A stretch of 18,775 nt of DNA from Planctomycetota bacterium. GTDB lineage: Bacteria; Planctomycetota; Phycisphaerae; WQYP01. This document shows, in pieces, positions 1-12,520 of the stretch. A program made the position numbers and the translations under genes. The first letter of the stretch is position 1; each line of letters opens with the position of its first letter. The notes under the pieces are model-generated. The model did no database searches and was not told the DNA's origin. It saw only the letters and a list, made by a program, of their open reading frames with translations. Where the stretch lies: positions 1-18,775 of the forward strand of contig JAJZGH010000072.1 in the NCBI GenBank assembly GCA_021798635.1, read 5' to 3'.

Positions 1-55
1 TATAGACCATAGTGTCGTAGCGGTTCGAAGCCGGCACCCAGGGATTCATTTGCAT
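1..55 (-). CDS. Aldo/keto reductase, YghZ-like (5' end only)
   Basis: Only the first 18 codons lie in the window; the gene runs off the left edge. Read on the minus strand, the peptide is MQMNPWVPASNRYDTMVY. The N-P-x(6)-RY-x-x-M-x-Y arrangement resembles the N-terminus of YghZ-type aldo/keto reductases (NADPH-dependent reduction of small aldehydes), which reads N-P-x-RY-x-x-M-x-YR-x-x-G-x-SGL. A GGAG ribosome-binding site (plus-strand CTCC at 61-64) stands 5 nt before the ATG at 53-55. A second in-frame ATG at 47-49 is possible but its spacing to GGAG is long. It lies downstream of, and in the same direction as, the GT87 gene, about 160 bp away. The identification rests on a short stretch and is tentative. 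Confidence 0.5.
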   Translation of the reverse strand, partial: MQMNPWVPASNRYDTMVY

Positions 56-155
56 AAATACTCCAAAACATTTTCGTAGGGGCCGCTGCGTGTGGCCCGC
101 AGGCTCCGCGATCCTGATGAATTTATCCGCTCATGACCGGTTTGGGAAGTTCTAT

Positions 156-195
156 GCACAAATCTAAGCACAAATCTGGGCACAATTCCAGGCAC
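156..195. repeat. 12-bp tandem repeat, 3.3 copies
   Basis: Three adjacent 12-bp units (GCACAAATCTAA, GCACAAATCTGG, GCACAATTCCAG) are followed by a further GCAC. They lie between the GT87 stop codon and the aldo/keto reductase start. The first two units differ at the last two bases only; the third has diverged more. The count is too small to suggest iterons or a CRISPR. The array is most simply a slippage-derived microrepeat, and no function is visible. Confidence 0.6.
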
Positions 196-216
196 GCGAT
201 TTCTTCAGGATGTGGT

Positions 217-1575
217 TTATGTTCCAGCCGCAGCGGTCAGCCATTCGCGCGGGGTTTCCCAATGCCACATCACAAATAATCCCAGACCCCAGAGCGCCAA
301 AGCGGAATAGGTAACCAGCCCCAGGCCACGCAGAATATAAAACGGCGGCGGGAGCACCGTCATAATATGGGATGCGGCAAAAAAGATGAACACCCAACCC
401 AATGCGCCGCCCAGAGGAAGCATCCGGTCATGTTCCCAACGCGCCGCCAGTAGCGCTGTAATCAGCGGCAGCACCATACAGAAATAATGGGGATGACAAA
501 TGGGGATAATGGGCATCATGATGGTAATCAGCACGCCAAGAAACAGATTGCGAAATATCGGATCATCCTTTCGGCGTAGAAATTCCACCAGCAGCGTAAT
601 CGCCACAAGCACGCAGGAAATTCCCCAATGCGCCAATTTCATCCATTTTGCCGGGGCTGGAGCGTGGCGCCCGAGGTAAACCGTATGGTCTATCATCGCT
701 TCAAAACTGGTCGAATCAGTCTTATTAATATCCAGAAGTTCCTTATCACGCGAGGTATTATGATTCAATCCCAGGGCAGGCTCCAAAACCACTTGGGCAA
801 AGCGGTGATACGCAGCCATCATGTGTTGCGGCCCCATGATGATCCCCGGGATAACCAACAAGCCCACCGCTAACGCCGCCGCCATACCGACAAGATACGT
901 CCACCGCAGCCGCGATATTCCATAAAGAATTAAAAAGCCCGGGAAAACCTTTAGCGCCGCCGCCAAGCCATTGGCAAACCCGGCCCAAAAGCGTTTGCGC
1001 GTGGCCAAAGCCGCCCCGGCAAAACAAAACAGCATTAAAAGAACACTATTGACCTGTCCGCGCACCACCGCGCGGCCAATGGCCGGCAGGCAGACCAAAA
1101 TTGGAATAATGCGAAGCGCCCACCACCGGCGGCAAAAACGCGGCATGTTGCGCACAGCCGGATCGGTGGAAGTTTTTTCCAGAGCCTCCGCCAGCGCATG
1201 ACTCCCCCACCAGATACAGCCAATGCTGATGAGAAACCAGATCGCCACGGAAACGGGATAGGGCAATAACCCCGCCCGACTGAATTTGGCCGGGGCGTCA
1301 GCCAGGGGGTACAAAAGAGTTGCCAGCAGAGGCGGATAATTGTAATGCCATCCATTGGTATCTGTGACATTGTAGGGATCTTTATGCACGCGCACCGCCC
1401 ATGCGGCGCGAAAATAAGTATCCACATCGGTCATCCGCCGTTTAAGAAAGGCGGACCGAACTTCCGTCACGCAGCCGAAGGCAAAAACGCCGATCAGCAA
1501 CGCGATCAGGCCCCATCGTTCAATTTTGGTCAACGGGTCAAAAGGGCCAATCTTGGTGGTGCTGGTCGTGTTCAC
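217..1575 (-). CDS. GT87-family membrane glycosyltransferase (DUF2029-like)
   Basis: A polytopic integral membrane protein of 452 aa with roughly ten hydrophobic segments. It matches the GT87 (DUF2029) pattern of polyprenyl-phosphate-sugar-dependent glycosyltransferases. Acidic residues D50 and D52 follow the first membrane helix, as expected for the GT-C active-site loop. A Y-N-Y-P-P-L motif is at about 78-83, G-Q-V-N at 173-176, and an A-A-L-K-V-F-P stretch at about 206-212. These enzymes add a mannose-type sugar to a lipid or glycan on the outer face of the membrane; donor and acceptor cannot be told here. The start is GTG (1573-1575), chosen because a GAGGAT ribosome-binding site lies 5 nt upstream. 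The gene is divergent from the sigma-54 unit at 1963-2222. Family confidence is high, substrate unknown. Confidence 0.8.
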   Translation of the reverse strand: MNTTSTTKIGPFDPLTKIERWGLIALLIGVFAFGCVTEVRSAFLKRRMTDVDTYFRAAWAVRVHKDPYNVTDTNGWHYNYPPLLATLLYPLADAPAKFSRAGLLPYPVSVAIWFLISIGCIWWGSHALAEALEKTSTDPAVRNMPRFCRRWWALRIIPILVCLPAIGRAVVRGQVNSVLLMLFCFAGAALATRKRFWAGFANGLAAALKVFPGFLILYGISRLRWTYLVGMAAALAVGLLVIPGIIMGPQHMMAAYHRFAQVVLEPALGLNHNTSRDKELLDINKTDSTSFEAMIDHTVYLGRHAPAPAKWMKLAHWGISCVLVAITLLVEFLRRKDDPIFRNLFLGVLITIMMPIIPICHPHYFCMVLPLITALLAARWEHDRMLPLGGALGWVFIFFAASHIMTVLPPPFYILRGLGLVTYSALALWGLGLFVMWHWETPREWLTAAAGT

Positions 1576-1962
1576 AACGGATCCTCATCTTGGTTGCGCC
1601 GGTCACTCCTGAAAATCCGGCAAGGTTCCCCGGCGCAGAGCGGGTGTGCGGCAACAGTTTTAGCTTGCCGGAGCAATTCCCGCAAATCTTAGGATTGTCC
1701 TGACGTGTTAGGCATGCCGGAGTAGCGCCTTGCATGGCGTATAAGCATCTCTGGGGCGTGCTGCACTAACTTTAGGCATTGGGTTGTGGGGTGTCCGGCT
1801 CCGGCACCCGCCCATTTTCAAGGCCCCATTTGGCTTTTTAAAACAGGTCTGTCCAATAATAAGGCAAAAGGCCCGGCTTTTTTTCAATAAAAATCCTGTT
1901 CCTTAAATCAAAGTGCGACGTCGTGTAGGGATTCGCAAAAAAAATTCCGCCGCATGTCGAAC
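1576..1962. other. Intergenic region between divergent units
   Basis: This stretch of 387 bases separates the GT87 start from the sigma-54 promoter. I see no credible coding frame. It contains small inverted repeats, for example CGCC/GGCG around 1727-1741 and the palindrome CGACGTCG at 1916-1923, which lies about 40 bp upstream of the -24 element. Sigma-54 activators usually bind inverted repeats upstream of the promoter, so an activator site may lie here, but none can be named. Confidence 0.4.
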
Positions 1963-1980
1963 TGGCATGAGAGTTGCAAT
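1963..1980 (+). promoter_or_regulatory. Sigma-54 (-24/-12) promoter
   Basis: The sequence TGGCATG-AGAG-TTGCAAT matches the sigma-54 consensus TGGCACG-N4-TTGCW with a single mismatch (T for C at the sixth base). The invariant GG (1964-1965) and GC (1976-1977) are exactly 10 bp apart. The flanking bases before the -24 element (CGAAC) also fit the consensus. Transcription would start near 1989. There is no protein gene in the expected place; the transcript would instead run to the intrinsic terminator at 2184-2221. Confidence 0.75.
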
Positions 1981-2019
1981 ATATCTAACGTGCGGCAAGG
2001 ACCGCGGGAGTGACAGAGA

Positions 2020-2073
2020 ATGCAAGAAATTCGGGACCGAAAGAACGGGACGGTGCTCGAATATGACAAGTGA
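2020..2073 (+). CDS. Possible 17-aa leader or small peptide inside the sRNA
   Basis: ATG at 2020-2022 opens a frame encoding MQEIRDRKNGTVLEYDK, ending in TGA at 2071-2073. A GGGAG ribosome-binding site at 2006-2010 stands 9 nt upstream, which is an acceptable distance. The peptide is highly charged and has no membrane segment. If translated, the candidate sRNA would be a dual-function RNA, or the peptide could be a leader of the kind used for attenuation. A frame this short can occur by chance, so this is a low-confidence call. Confidence 0.25.
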   Translation: MQEIRDRKNGTVLEYDK

Positions 2074-2183
2074 ATATGGATCGTGTATGGCGCAGGGCCA
2101 CCGCTTCCCAAGCACAACCTGGAGGTCTGTGCGGGTGTGATCTGCACCATACACTATCACTTAAACTCGTTTCCTCCTCCGCC

Positions 2184-2221
2184 AAGCCGTGTGGACCTAC
2201 CCTCCTCCACACGGCTTTTTT
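2184..2221 (+). terminator. Strong intrinsic terminator
   Basis: A perfect 12-bp stem, AAGCCGTGTGGA (2184-2195) with TCCACACGGCTT (2206-2217), has a 10-nt loop and runs into a T tract at 2216-2221. It points rightward and sits 76 bp before citrate synthase. No plus-strand protein gene precedes it, so it most likely ends the sigma-54 transcript. It also insulates citrate synthase from that transcript, unless read-through is regulated. Confidence 0.85.
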
Positions 2222-2297
2222 ATTGCGCCCAAAACTATACGATTCCATCTCCAGTGTGTATTATTAGTATCTCTGATGTGCGTTCAGGAGTAATCGT

Positions 2298-3437
2298 ATG
2301 ACCCAGACCCCCATGACTACCGTCGGCGCAACCAGCGGAGGCCTGCGCGACATCGTGGCGTTAAGCTCTTCCATTTGCTCCATTGAAAACGGCGTGTTGA
2401 CCTATCGCGGCATTTCCATCGATGAACTGGCGGAAAATTCCACATTTGAAGAAGTGGTATTTCTGCTTTGGAACGGGCGACTTCCTACGCGCGGAGAACT
2501 GGACGATCTGCGCCAATCCATTGCCGAGCAGGCACAATTGCCGGAAGGGCTGCTGGCCATGATGAAATCCTTTCCCCGGCGCAGCACGCCGATGGAAGCT
2601 CTGCGCACCGCCGCCAGCGCTATGGCTATGTTTGACGCTGAATCCGAAGACATGTCCGCCGCGGCCAATCAGCGAAAATCCCTGCGGATTCTGGGTCAAA
2701 TGGCCAGCGTCGTAGCGGCGTATGATCGCATCCGCAACGACCGCGAACCTCTGGCACCCCGACGTGATTTGAACCTGGCGGCAAATTTTTTATACATGCT
2801 CACCGGCCGATCGCCCGAACCTTTGGCCACACGCGCCCTGGACAAAGCTTATATTCTTCACGCGGATCATGAATTAAATGCCAGCACATTTGCCGCACGC
2901 GTGGCGGCAGGCACGCTGACCGATATGCACTCCGCGCTCGTAGCCGCCATCTGTGCCTTAAAAGGCCCCCTGCATGGCGGAGCCAATGAACAGGTCATGC
3001 GGATGCTTAATGAAATCGGCAACCCGGACACCGTGGATGCCTATATCCGGGCGAAGCTGGACAACCACGAAAAAATAATGGGTTTTGGACACGCGGTTTA
3101 TAAAAACGGCGATCCGCGCGCCCGGCATCTCAAGGAAATGTCGCGCCAGCTCGGCACCCTGACCGGGCAGCAGCGCTGGTATGAAATGTCTGTGCGCATC
3201 GAAGACTTGGTGGTACGAACAAAAAATTTGAAGCCGAATGTCGATTTTTACAGCGCATCAGTGTATCACTATCTGCATATACCCGCTGATCTTTTTACTC
3301 CGATTTTCGCCATCAGCCGCACCAGCGGATGGATTGCCCACATTCTGGAGCAATATTCAAACAACAAGCTGATCCGGCCCCGCGCGGAATATATCGGACC
3401 GCGCAATCAGCATTGGAAATCGTTTGAATCCCGCTGA
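2298..3437 (+). CDS. gltA: Citrate synthase
   Basis: Condenses acetyl-CoA and oxaloacetate to citrate, the entry step of the TCA cycle, in the cytoplasm. At 379 aa it has the length of the short bacterial (Bacillus/archaeal-like) form. The catalytic triad is visible: H226 in GPLHGGANEQ, H265 in GFGHAVYKNGDPRAR, and D316 in NVDFYSASVY. Other family signatures are the LHADHELNAST segment (187-197) and the C-terminal R-T-S-G-W-x-A-H and R-P-R-A-x-Y-x-G motifs (341-366), which include substrate-binding arginines. The ATG is supported by AGGAG at 2286-2290, 7 nt upstream, in a TTCAGGAGTA context also seen at sodA. It has little upstream space for a promoter; TATTAT at 2259-2264 is a weak -10 candidate. 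The symbol assumes the primary citrate synthase; a methylcitrate synthase is a less likely alternative. Confidence 0.93.
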   Translation: MTQTPMTTVGATSGGLRDIVALSSSICSIENGVLTYRGISIDELAENSTFEEVVFLLWNGRLPTRGELDDLRQSIAEQAQLPEGLLAMMKSFPRRSTPMEALRTAASAMAMFDAESEDMSAAANQRKSLRILGQMASVVAAYDRIRNDREPLAPRRDLNLAANFLYMLTGRSPEPLATRALDKAYILHADHELNASTFAARVAAGTLTDMHSALVAAICALKGPLHGGANEQVMRMLNEIGNPDTVDAYIRAKLDNHEKIMGFGHAVYKNGDPRARHLKEMSRQLGTLTGQQRWYEMSVRIEDLVVRTKNLKPNVDFYSASVYHYLHIPADLFTPIFAISRTSGWIAHILEQYSNNKLIRPRAEYIGPRNQHWKSFESR

Positions 3438-3499
3438 CGTATTTTTTCTCAAGGCGTTTTGGAAATGAAACCCCGCCATGCTTAATCGGGCTTGATGCT

Positions 3500-4189
3500 A
3501 TGAACATTCTGGTAATTGGACCCCACCCCGACGATCAGGAACTCGCTATGGGCGCAACGATTGCCCTGCTCACGCGACAGATGCACGCTGTGACACTTCT
3601 GGACATGACCAATGGCGAACCGACGCCCTTCGGCACACCCGAAACGCGGGCGGCCGAATCAGCCGCTGCCGCCAAGATTCTGGGAGCCACCCGCCTGTCA
3701 CTGGGGCTGAAAAATCGGGAAGTGACATGGAGTCTTGCCGCGCGCCATGCCACGGCCGCCGTGTTTCGCCGGCTTCGCCCTGATATTGTATTTCTTCCCT
3801 ATCCCCAGGACGCCCACCCGGACCATCGGCAAGTGACCAAAATCGCTGAAGATGCCCGGTTTGACGCCAAGCTGACAAAATCCGAAATCCCCGGTAAACC
3901 ATTTTATCCGCCGCGGTTGATCTACTATTTCTGCTCCCATCTGCGGTTTAATTTTCCGGCCTCTTTCTGTGTGGATGTTACAGATGCCATGGATGCTAAA
4001 CGTCAGGCGGTGCGGTGTTATGAATCGCAGTTCAGTACGGGGCGGCCGGCGGAATCGCAGTGGGAAATCCTCCCCTACATTGAGAATATCAACGGATATT
4101 TCGGCGGGACCATTCGCCGTCGATTCGCGGAACCCTTTTTCGTGCAGGAAACACTGGGGCTAAAATCCCTGGATGGACTGGCTTTTTAA
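3500..4189 (+). CDS. bshB1: PIG-L family deacetylase, BshB1-like
   Basis: A zinc-dependent N-acetylglucosaminyl deacetylase of 229 aa, close to the usual BshB1 length. The P-H-P-D-D-Q-E motif at residues 8-14 supplies the metal ligands H9 and D12, and H-P-D-H at 106-109 supplies the third histidine. T-x-G-E-type residues follow at 38-41. The C-terminal half carries features of the bacillithiol branch of the family: V-D-V-T-D near 158-162, Y-E-S-Q-F at 174-178, and a Y-F-G-G...A-E-P-F-F-V ending. BshB1 removes the acetyl group from GlcNAc-malate in bacillithiol synthesis. Partner genes bshA and bshC are not in the window, so another GlcNAc-type substrate is possible. It begins 62 bp after gltA, with no clear Shine-Dalgarno sequence, and may share the gltA transcript. 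Confidence 0.78.
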   Translation: MNILVIGPHPDDQELAMGATIALLTRQMHAVTLLDMTNGEPTPFGTPETRAAESAAAAKILGATRLSLGLKNREVTWSLAARHATAAVFRRLRPDIVFLPYPQDAHPDHRQVTKIAEDARFDAKLTKSEIPGKPFYPPRLIYYFCSHLRFNFPASFCVDVTDAMDAKRQAVRCYESQFSTGRPAESQWEILPYIENINGYFGGTIRRRFAEPFFVQETLGLKSLDGLAF

Positions 4190-4237
4190 GCGCGTGTGTT
4201 GTAAGTTTTAGTTTTTAGTAAGAAGGATAATGGTCGC

Positions 4238-5371
4238 ATGACTAAAGAATCGCAGGGTACAAAAGTTGAAGTCGCCGAATCCGCCAAGCGCGGAGCAACG
4301 CCGAAGATTCATAAATATTTTGAAGTTGTCACCAAGGTGGAAGGCAGCGATTTGCACATCAAGGCCGAGGTATTGCCGCGCGTGCGTAAATCCGGTCGGC
4401 TGGTTCCGACTACCGGCACACCGCTGACCAATGCGGAAATCGAAGCCATGGTCAAGGAAATGCTCACCGAAGAGCAGTGGCATGATTTCCTGCATCGCGG
4501 ATCACTGGATATCGCCTACGCCATAGGCCCCACCGAGCGATTCCGCGTCAATATTTTTCGCCAGCGCGGCATGGTCAGCTTGGCGGCGCGGCGCATTAAT
4601 CCGAAAATTCCGAATTTCGCCCAGTTGCACCTGCCTGAAGTTTTTGAAAAAATTGCGGACAACGAACAGGGACTGGTCATGCTCGCGGGCATCACGGGCA
4701 GCGGCAAAAGCACCACCATCGCTGCGATGCTCCAGCAAGTGAACGATCGGCGGTCATGCCACATTATCACCATAGAAGATCCTATTGAATACACCTATGT
4801 GGATCAGAAAGCCTTTATCAACCAGCGCGAAGTGGGTCTGGATGTTGAAAGCTTTGAAATGGCCATCCGCTACATGATGCGTGAAGACCCTGATGTTATT
4901 TTGATCGGGGAAATGCGTGACCGCCTGACATTTCAGGCTGCCGTACAGGCCACGGAAACCGGGCACATGGTGTTTTCCACCATTCATGCCGCCAGTGCTC
5001 CGGGAGCCATCACACGCGTTCTGGAATTGTTCCCTCCGGATATGCACATGAACATGCGTCAGGCTATTGCCAACAATATGAAGGCCATTATTTTTCAGAA
5101 ACTGGTGCCGGCCATCGATCCAGCCATTGGCCGAGTCCCGGTGGTCGAAGTCATGTTGAATTCACCCTCGGTCAGGAAATACATTCTTGAAGGCCGGGAA
5201 AATGAATTGACGCAGGTGATCCGGTCCGAGCGCGGAGCCGGGATGATTGACTTTAATGACATGCTGTGTGAACTTGTGGCCAGCGAGACCATTACACACA
5301 AAGAGGCCTATATTGCGTCGCCCAATCCGGATGAATTGCGCATGCGCATGAAGGGCATTCGTACGAATTAA
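4238..5371 (+). CDS. PilT/PilU-like type IV pilus retraction ATPase
   Basis: A 377-aa secretion ATPase of the PilT/GspE superfamily with all active motifs intact. S-D-L-H-I is at 37-41, the Walker A G-I-T-G-S-G-K-S-T-T at 151-160 (K157), the Asp box T-I-E-D-P-I-E-Y at 178-185, the Walker B D-V-I-L-I-G-E-M-R-D at 219-228 with catalytic E225, and the His box T-G-H-M-V-F-S-T-I-H at 241-250. No tetracysteine zinc motif is present, as expected for the retraction branch. These ATPases form cytoplasmic hexamers that drive pilus disassembly and twitching. The ATG is supported by AAGGA about 10 nt upstream. It is followed 149 bp later by a degenerate GspE-like gene, suggesting joint work in one envelope machine. 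It could be PilT or PilU; sequence alone does not decide. Confidence 0.88.
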   Translation: MTKESQGTKVEVAESAKRGATPKIHKYFEVVTKVEGSDLHIKAEVLPRVRKSGRLVPTTGTPLTNAEIEAMVKEMLTEEQWHDFLHRGSLDIAYAIGPTERFRVNIFRQRGMVSLAARRINPKIPNFAQLHLPEVFEKIADNEQGLVMLAGITGSGKSTTIAAMLQQVNDRRSCHIITIEDPIEYTYVDQKAFINQREVGLDVESFEMAIRYMMREDPDVILIGEMRDRLTFQAAVQATETGHMVFSTIHAASAPGAITRVLELFPPDMHMNMRQAIANNMKAIIFQKLVPAIDPAIGRVPVVEVMLNSPSVRKYILEGRENELTQVIRSERGAGMIDFNDMLCELVASETITHKEAYIASPNPDELRMRMKGIRTN

Positions 5372-12446: not shown

Positions 12447-12520
12447 TGCGCCCGGCGGGAATCGAACCCACAACCGTCCGCTTAGAAGGCGGATGCTCTA
12501 TCCAATTGAGCTACGAGCGC
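12447..12520 (-). tRNA. tRNA-Arg (anticodon UCU)
   Basis: Read on the minus strand, a full cloverleaf is visible. The acceptor 5' strand GCGCTCG pairs with CGGGCGC (one G-U), with discriminator A. The D-loop region is TAGCTCAATTGGATAGAGC. The anticodon stem CCGCC/GGCGG-type arm encloses loop CTTCTAA with anticodon TCT, and the T arm contains GGTTCGATTCC. CCA is not encoded. It decodes AGA/AGG. It lies downstream of sucB on the same strand, about 110 bp away, with the 3' end touching the tandem repeat array. Confidence 0.95.

Follow-up and report, generated by a model that had tools for sequence, protein, structure and literature searches.

A predicted sigma-54-driven, terminator-bounded small RNA upstream of gltA in a planctomycete, and the 3' module that it shares with other loci

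Comparison among related genomes gives good support to reading the unit upstream of the citrate synthase gene gltA as a sigma-54-driven, terminator-bounded, non-coding RNA, apparently a regulatory sRNA that has not been described before. That support comes from the promoter and the terminator having been kept while their surroundings drift, and from their joint recurrence at other loci. On balance, we also favor the view that the gene encodes a trans-acting sRNA that is activated through sigma-54 and silences mRNAs without Hfq, by masking their Shine-Dalgarno sequences. The general kinds to which such an RNA family would belong, the anti-Shine-Dalgarno sRNAs and the sigma-54-driven sRNAs, are known; the combination was not found in the open-access literature searched. 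The window, by which is meant the whole stretch of 18,775 nucleotides that was analyzed, has the following features at and around this locus.

217 to 1575, minus strand: gene for a GT87 glycosyltransferase (PF09594, E 1.4e-25), a divergent neighbor often kept with the RNA
1851 to 1865, plus strand: putative activator (enhancer) site GTCCAATAATAAGGC, a phased motif in relatives
1963 to 1978, plus strand: sigma-54 promoter (-24/-12) TGGCATGAGAGTTGCA, score 14.0 of 15, conserved in relatives
1989 to 2221, plus strand: predicted small RNA of about 233 nt, its start inferred from the -12 element and its end from the terminator, with no conserved ORF
2079 to 2158, plus strand: long imperfect hairpin (arms 2079-2095 and 2142-2158), from folding, its pairs kept in 10 distinct sequences
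2166 to 2183, plus strand: conserved linker ("seed") CUCGUUUCCUCCUCCGCC, anti-Shine-Dalgarno-like, exact in 39 of the 40 loci read
2173 to 2183, plus strand: kernel of the conserved linker, CCUCCUCCGCC
2184 to 2221, plus strand: intrinsic terminator with a covarying stem and CCCUCC in its loop (2200-2205)
2298 to 3437, plus strand: citrate synthase gene gltA (PF00285), next to the RNA in the closest relatives only and downstream of it in 7 of 40 loci

The promoter and a putative activator site

A first-pass annotation of the window had described a -24/-12 element one base away from consensus, and this description holds at 1963-1978, where TGGCATGAGAGTTGCA differs from TGGCAC-N5-TTGCA at a single base and has the spacing GG-N10-GC. 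A weighted scan that covered the two strands of the entire window gave no other site with 13 of 15 or more, the six next scoring 12.5. The C of the -12 element lies at 1977, from which a start at about 1989 is predicted, the value that had been proposed before.

Further upstream is a motif that may bind the activator. It was searched for as GTCCAATAATTGGGC with up to four mismatches, distances being counted from the T of TGGCA. Among the 18 loci that share the architecture of the window (group A, below), 11 have it ahead of the promoter, compared with 23 of 1051 control segments; in the other seven it was not found. Seven close relatives have the motif at -111/-112, and in another four it is found at -69/-70. 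These positions are 42 bp apart, or some four helical turns, which fits an activator obliged to face the polymerase. In two loci (L194 and L201), the motif is the palindrome CCAAT-A-ATTGG. Genome-wide it shows no clear enrichment (68 occurrences against 46 in the control), and among 30 of these loci that were read, a sigma-54-like site lay downstream in four, all of them loci of the RNA.

Conservation at the gltA locus

A search with gltA, from which 80 loci were kept, placed the source of the window close to metagenome-assembled genomes (MAGs) titled Planctomycetota and Phycisphaerales; 11 of the loci are from planctomycete MAGs (L001-L010 under the former title and L038 under the latter). 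The RNA is found upstream of gltA in eight sequences, namely the window, L001-L006, and L038. It is not upstream of gltA in L007, L009, or L010, nor within the 239 bp available upstream of gltA in L008. A search of the genomes themselves gave a match to the RNA in every one but that of L010 (10 of 11); for L007, L008, and L009, the match lies away from gltA.

Mean pairwise identity among six sequences (the window, L003-L006, and L038) is 0.96 across the promoter compared with 0.56 and 0.61 in two stretches upstream of it. Within the RNA it rises from 0.82 in the 5' part through 0.92 in the hairpin and linker to 0.985 in the 59-nt 3' module, formed by the linker and the terminator. Between the terminator and gltA it is 0.74, and the coding sequence of gltA has 0.87. 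This profile indicates that the promoter and the RNA have been retained as the gaps on either side diverged. The first-pass annotation had named conservation of the promoter and terminator in close relatives as the test of its proposal, and both are indeed conserved.

The end of the T-tract is separated from the start of gltA by 76 bp, a distance at which the unit might be a cis element, either a leader or a read-through regulator of gltA. However, a strong terminator separates the RNA from the gene, the intervening stretch is less conserved than the 3' half of the RNA, and gltA is downstream in only 7 of the 40 loci at which the 3' module was read; we regard a cis-acting role as very unlikely. 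The attention previously given to the adjacent citrate synthase gene requires correction. The commonest shared neighbor is the gene for the GT87 glycosyltransferase, located divergently upstream in 14 of the 40 loci, and gltA is therefore best seen as an accidental neighbor of what we take to be a trans-acting RNA.

In L001 (about 1984-2265), an insert of ~280 bp with the inverted ends CAGGAGCCT and AGGCTCCT lies between the sigma-54 promoter and the body of the RNA. The same insert abuts the RNA body in L002 (about 5-286), on a contig that begins just before it, and part of it is also present upstream of gltA in L008. It looks like a small mobile element.

The RNA and its terminator

The terminator with a 12-bp stem that had been noted before was confirmed as an exact stem (2184-2195 with 2206-2217) enclosing a 10-nt loop, with six T residues at 2216-2221. 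A generic terminator scan, which admits only loops of 3-8 nt, misses it, and the eight terminators found by that scan in 1-5000 are at the level of shuffled sequence. Among the 11 modeled pairs of the stem, two-sided changes are seen in six by one count and in five by another. Of all terminator cells, 99.2% are paired, a figure that falls to 34-57% if the partners are slid against one another. Four of five measures of covariation exceed all 500 shuffles; the number of further pair types (9 versus 10.6 in shuffles) shows no excess.

Folding of the segment 2081-2224 gives -55 kcal/mol, with a z-score of -5.2 relative to dinucleotide shuffles. For the long hairpin, the 10 distinct sequences contain a single two-sided change, which is the level found in shuffles, and covariation support for this element is correspondingly weak. 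Within 1989-2080, a small stem-loop close to the predicted start is, by eye, seemingly common to other group A RNAs, with a differing sequence.

That no convincing protein frame lies between promoter and terminator was also borne out. A small-protein reading was rejected, as none of the six ORFs that cross the region matches Pfam, and among seven close sequences the frames are interrupted by stop codons, shifted by a 1-nt deletion, or deprived of their start. Short frames, such as the 17-codon frame MQEIRDRKNGTVLEYDK of the window, are present in several relatives, and the unit could in principle be the mRNA of a small protein of this sort. Yet the 17-codon frame meets a stop after six codons in L006 and has no start in L038, the next frame is lost in L003 through the 1-nt deletion and in L005 through a stop, and the terminator loop differs in length by 1-2 nt among copies, all of which make a coding function highly improbable. 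A feature of the minus strand is just as hard to credit. The reverse strand reads GGCGGAGGAGGAAACGAG, which would offer a leader with a strong ribosome site, GGAGGAGGAAACGAG, to a divergent gene, and long minus-strand ORFs do extend to the module in L186 and L188. Against this, the T-tract and the sigma-54 site both indicate the plus strand, and in the other loci with a GT87 or GH123-like gene the minus-strand ORF begins some 230 to 1060 bases before the module.

The 3' module as a family

The 59-nt 3' module, CUCGUUUCCUCCUCCGCC followed by the covarying terminator, is not confined to the gltA locus. A covariance model built from 26 sequences (alignment A2) and applied to 397 genomes of the class detected 43 copies in 33 genomes at E ≤1e-6, with up to four in one genome, a multiplicity that suits a trans-acting RNA. 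Searching the same genomes by blastn gave matches in 36 at E ≤0.01, several of them short. L116, a blastn match lacking the module, was dropped. Within the order (28 genomes), strong matches to the module occur in 18 and a weak one in a nineteenth. The linker is exact over 18 nt in 39 of 40 loci, L184 differing at the first base, among copies that the covariance model had picked out and that were allowed up to two substitutions. This is a fairer figure than the invariance within A2, which is partly due to selection because its 26 rows were picked by an exact linker match. The 40-locus set includes the window as its 40th member as well as close relatives, and so its loci are not independent. 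Of the 43 copies, four were kept out of these counts: that of G002, whose contig is cut off at the insert, the upstream member of the tandem pair in G080, and G087:C2 and G016:C13, which were checked separately. Two divergent copies, L189 and L191, retain CUCCUCCGCC.

In the wider phylum, the 18-nt pattern with one mismatch gave 17 matches in 15 of 392 genomes, compared with six for the reversed control. Only the copy belonging to G003 was exact, and a terminator followed none of the other 16; such a pattern would miss divergent copies and says nothing firm about absence outside the class.

Reading of the 40 loci allowed several architectures to be assigned. Group A (18 loci including the window) has TGGCAY-N5-TTGC, a variable 5' part, and then the module, which is preceded by a GUGYAUGG hairpin in 13 of the 18. 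Group B1 (ten loci) has a -12 element of the TTCGC type and, ahead of the module, a long hairpin together with the conserved stretch (G/A)AGCGCGGUUGGUUCCC; at this second conserved stretch, no Rfam match was found in the seven of these loci that were searched. Group B2 comprises four short units with CGGCAC...TTTG (L176, L177, L187, and L188). In group B3 (six loci), a TGGCAC...TTTGT site, which in one case begins TGGCACA, is followed by a small CBM48-like gene and then by the module. Matches to CBM48 (PF02922) were obtained for both of the proteins tested, and the remaining four cluster with them by blastp. L170 and L186 fit every type poorly.

Among neighboring genes, a large divergent protein of 800-1000 amino acids accompanies the RNA in 13 of the 40 loci (L170, L173, L176-L179, L182, L184, L186-L188, L192, and L193). 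It has no NCBIfam match, and its GH123 label comes from one sub-cut-off match, to PF22680 (GH123 N-terminal; 20.7 bits against a cut-off of 27), in one of four proteins tested. In the B1 copies, the sequence (G/A)AGCGCGGTTGGTTCCC followed by a GC-rich hairpin precedes the module, the loci being L169, L171, L172, L174, L175, L180, L181, L183, L185, L189, and L190. The tandem modules of G080 lie on the minus strand of L193 (about 3001-3061 and 3109-3169), and the upstream copy has a different terminator stem and a poor T-tract.

Sigma-54, RpoN, and Hfq in the order

The association of the module with sigma-54 promoters extends across the architectures. A score of at least 14 is reached upstream of the module in 16 of 40 loci and in none of 1302 control segments, and a strict pattern occurs upstream of 17 of 40 copies and in none of 1190 controls. 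With a relaxed pattern the corresponding values are 37 of 40 and 15 of 1190, L170 being counted as positive only through an irregular match. The misses are L001, where the promoter is intact and has been displaced by the insert, L176, which is one letter off, and L186. As the relaxed pattern was widened after the loci had been viewed, the two divergent copies outside the 40-locus count constitute a cleaner test, and a sigma-54-like site is present upstream of both.

The gene rpoN was found in 24 of the 28 genomes of the order, including 17 of the 18 with a strong match to the RNA; the exception, G002, is a MAG for which completeness is not given. Seven genomes have rpoN and no RNA. Hfq was found in none of the 28 genomes by a model that was positive in 5 of 14 control genomes.

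Proposed mechanism and candidate targets

The following sequence of events may be envisaged. An activator bound some 110 bp upstream would allow the sigma-54 polymerase to start near 1989, as the motifs suggest, and transcription would stop at the terminator near 2221, a prediction backed by the covariation seen in the family. The resulting RNA is predicted to consist of a variable 5' region, the long hairpin, the CU-rich linker, and the terminator hairpin, a layout that conservation supports. The linker would then pair with the Shine-Dalgarno sequences of mRNAs and block their translation without Hfq. The grounds for proposing such pairing are the likeness of the linker to the CU-rich 3' end of 16S rRNA (the 16S gene of G056, a genome with the RNA, ends GGATCACCTCCTTT), the lack of a detectable Hfq, the precedent of NfeR1, and the fact that ar14, although far short of its cut-off, is the best Rfam match. 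Since the same 3' module is found on several different sigma-54 transcripts of related genomes, different activators may feed one silencing output.

Another explanation is that the module is only a strong shared terminator or 3'-end stabilizer, on an RNA that has no target. In keeping with this, it is at the transcript 3' end in the architectures read, the CBM48-like mRNAs included, its stem is kept by covariation, and access to the linker is unclear in folds of the full-length RNA. What speaks against it is that the best-conserved letters are the 18 that precede the stem, which termination does not need and which are near-invariant, while the stem itself varies with compensation; we consider this explanation unlikely. 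An RNA that binds a protein, as a decoy or scaffold in the manner of CsrB or CrcZ, in place of pairing with mRNAs, strikes us as a little more doubtful still. Sigma-54-linked decoy RNAs such as CrcZ exist, and the invariant CU-rich motif, with its partial repeat in the terminator loop, could serve as a protein site. However, this motif is unlike the GGA contained in CsrA sites, and the order appears to lack Hfq.

Returning to Shine-Dalgarno pairing, two observations weaken it, namely the pairing of the linker in full-length folds and the thin outcome of the target search. In all five folds of the 3' part alone, the linker is left unpaired. In full-length folds, it is largely paired with the 5' region, its mean unpaired probability being 0.32 in the window and ranging from 0.04 to 0.57 among 17 group A RNAs (the set omits L001 because of its insert). 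Self-masking as a built-in lock was considered and rejected, as the mean unpaired probability in 13 RNAs, with the near-duplicates L003, L004, L038, and L197 also omitted, was 0.34 compared with 0.35 for shuffled 5' regions. With shuffled regions giving equal pairing, the linker does not behave as a conserved lock, nor does it seem to be freely open as a seed.

The 8-nt target pattern GGAGGAGG followed by ATG is weakly enriched in 11 genomes (65 versus 43 in the control) and occurs 76 times in G080 against 18 in the control. Among 36 of 141 such sites that were read, the sole group of orthologous proteins was a response regulator (PF00072) in G007, G008, and G009. A search for this protein added G109, and all four encoding genomes, out of the 28 of the order that were searched, carry GGUGGAGGAGG before the start. 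This sequence could form 11 bp with the RNA kernel, including one G-U pair, with a duplex energy of -26 to -27 kcal/mol. The response regulator gene is thus a candidate target, drawn from sites preselected for GGAGGAGG; it is absent from the clade of the window (G003-G006 and G011). Within that clade, 30 of 32 target-pattern sites were read and had no protein gene in common; only a 9-codon frame, identical between G003 and G011, was shared. A scan for linker duplexes at gene starts near the RNA gave its own reverse strand as the top matches, with no neighbor prominent.

As a broader and more tentative proposal, this order, in which no Hfq was detected, might possess a sigma-54 RNA regulon in which one anti-Shine-Dalgarno 3' module has been joined to several unrelated sigma-54 transcripts, namely CBM48-like mRNAs and stand-alone RNAs with differing 5' types, such that different activators converge on shared silenced mRNAs. 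These could belong to polysaccharide or carbon-storage metabolism, a guess based on the GT87, GH123-like, and CBM48 neighbors.

Relation to known regulatory RNAs

Several sigma-54-dependent sRNAs are known, including Qrr, CrcZ/CrcY, NrsZ, and GlmY, and in the case of Qrr sibling copies exist within one genome. The present RNA resembles these in being an sRNA under a sigma-54 promoter and in having sibling copies; it differs in its seed and in the order having no detected Hfq. sRNAs derived from 3' UTRs are likewise an established class, of which sodF is reportedly a case. The module follows a CBM48-like gene in six loci and is to that extent similar, whereas at other loci it forms the 3' end of what appear to be independent non-coding transcripts.

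The likeliest mechanism is an Hfq-free pairing with Shine-Dalgarno sequences similar to that of alphar14/NfeR1, by an RNA outside that family. According to the available excerpt of PMC10746234, NfeR1, the founder of alphar14, is independent of Hfq and silences mRNAs through CCUCCUCCC anti-Shine-Dalgarno motifs; NfeR1 and the present RNA have CCUCCUCC motifs in common. The score against ar14 (RF02344) is 23.4 bits compared with a cut-off of 58.8 (E 0.019), which places the RNA outside the family. In the same excerpt, alphar14 RNAs have three hairpins, each with CCUCCUCCC, whereas here there is one copy in the linker and a partial copy in the terminator loop, with none in the long hairpin. NfeR1 is described there as activated by LsrB and repressed by NtrC, whereas the present RNA has a sigma-54 promoter. 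The two also differ in distribution, alphar14 occurring in Alphaproteobacteria and the present RNA in Planctomycetota. AbcR1 and AbcR2 offer a further parallel, with two anti-Shine-Dalgarno motifs, one located in a loop (CUCCUCCC) and the other lying between stems (UUCCCCUC; PMC8844928, in excerpt); the positions and sequences of these motifs are different, and a dependence on Hfq is implied in the excerpt of PMC10746234.

Regulatory RNAs of the Planctomycetota seem to have been barely described. A table excerpted from a review lists eight for the PVC group against 345 for Proteobacteria, if its column has the meaning that we presume (PMC9029176), and the terms "sRNA" and "non-coding" are absent from the main text, as far as available, of a recent comparison of sigma-54 regulons (PMC12316311). 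In the open-access literature, no publication joining sigma-54, sRNA, and Planctomycetota was found, and for Phycisphaerae with sRNA nothing was related by title among the matches listed. A conserved family of sRNAs coupled to sigma-54 would provide a concrete entry to Hfq-free RNA regulation in this phylum and make one output of sigma-54 there testable. In line with the suggestion of an undescribed RNA in the first-pass annotation, neither the window nor any of 20 related loci gave a match to the RNA in Rfam 15 at the gathering threshold, the only matches being to tRNA and 16S rRNA. The window contains a tRNA gene at 12447-12520 on the minus strand (70.6 bits).
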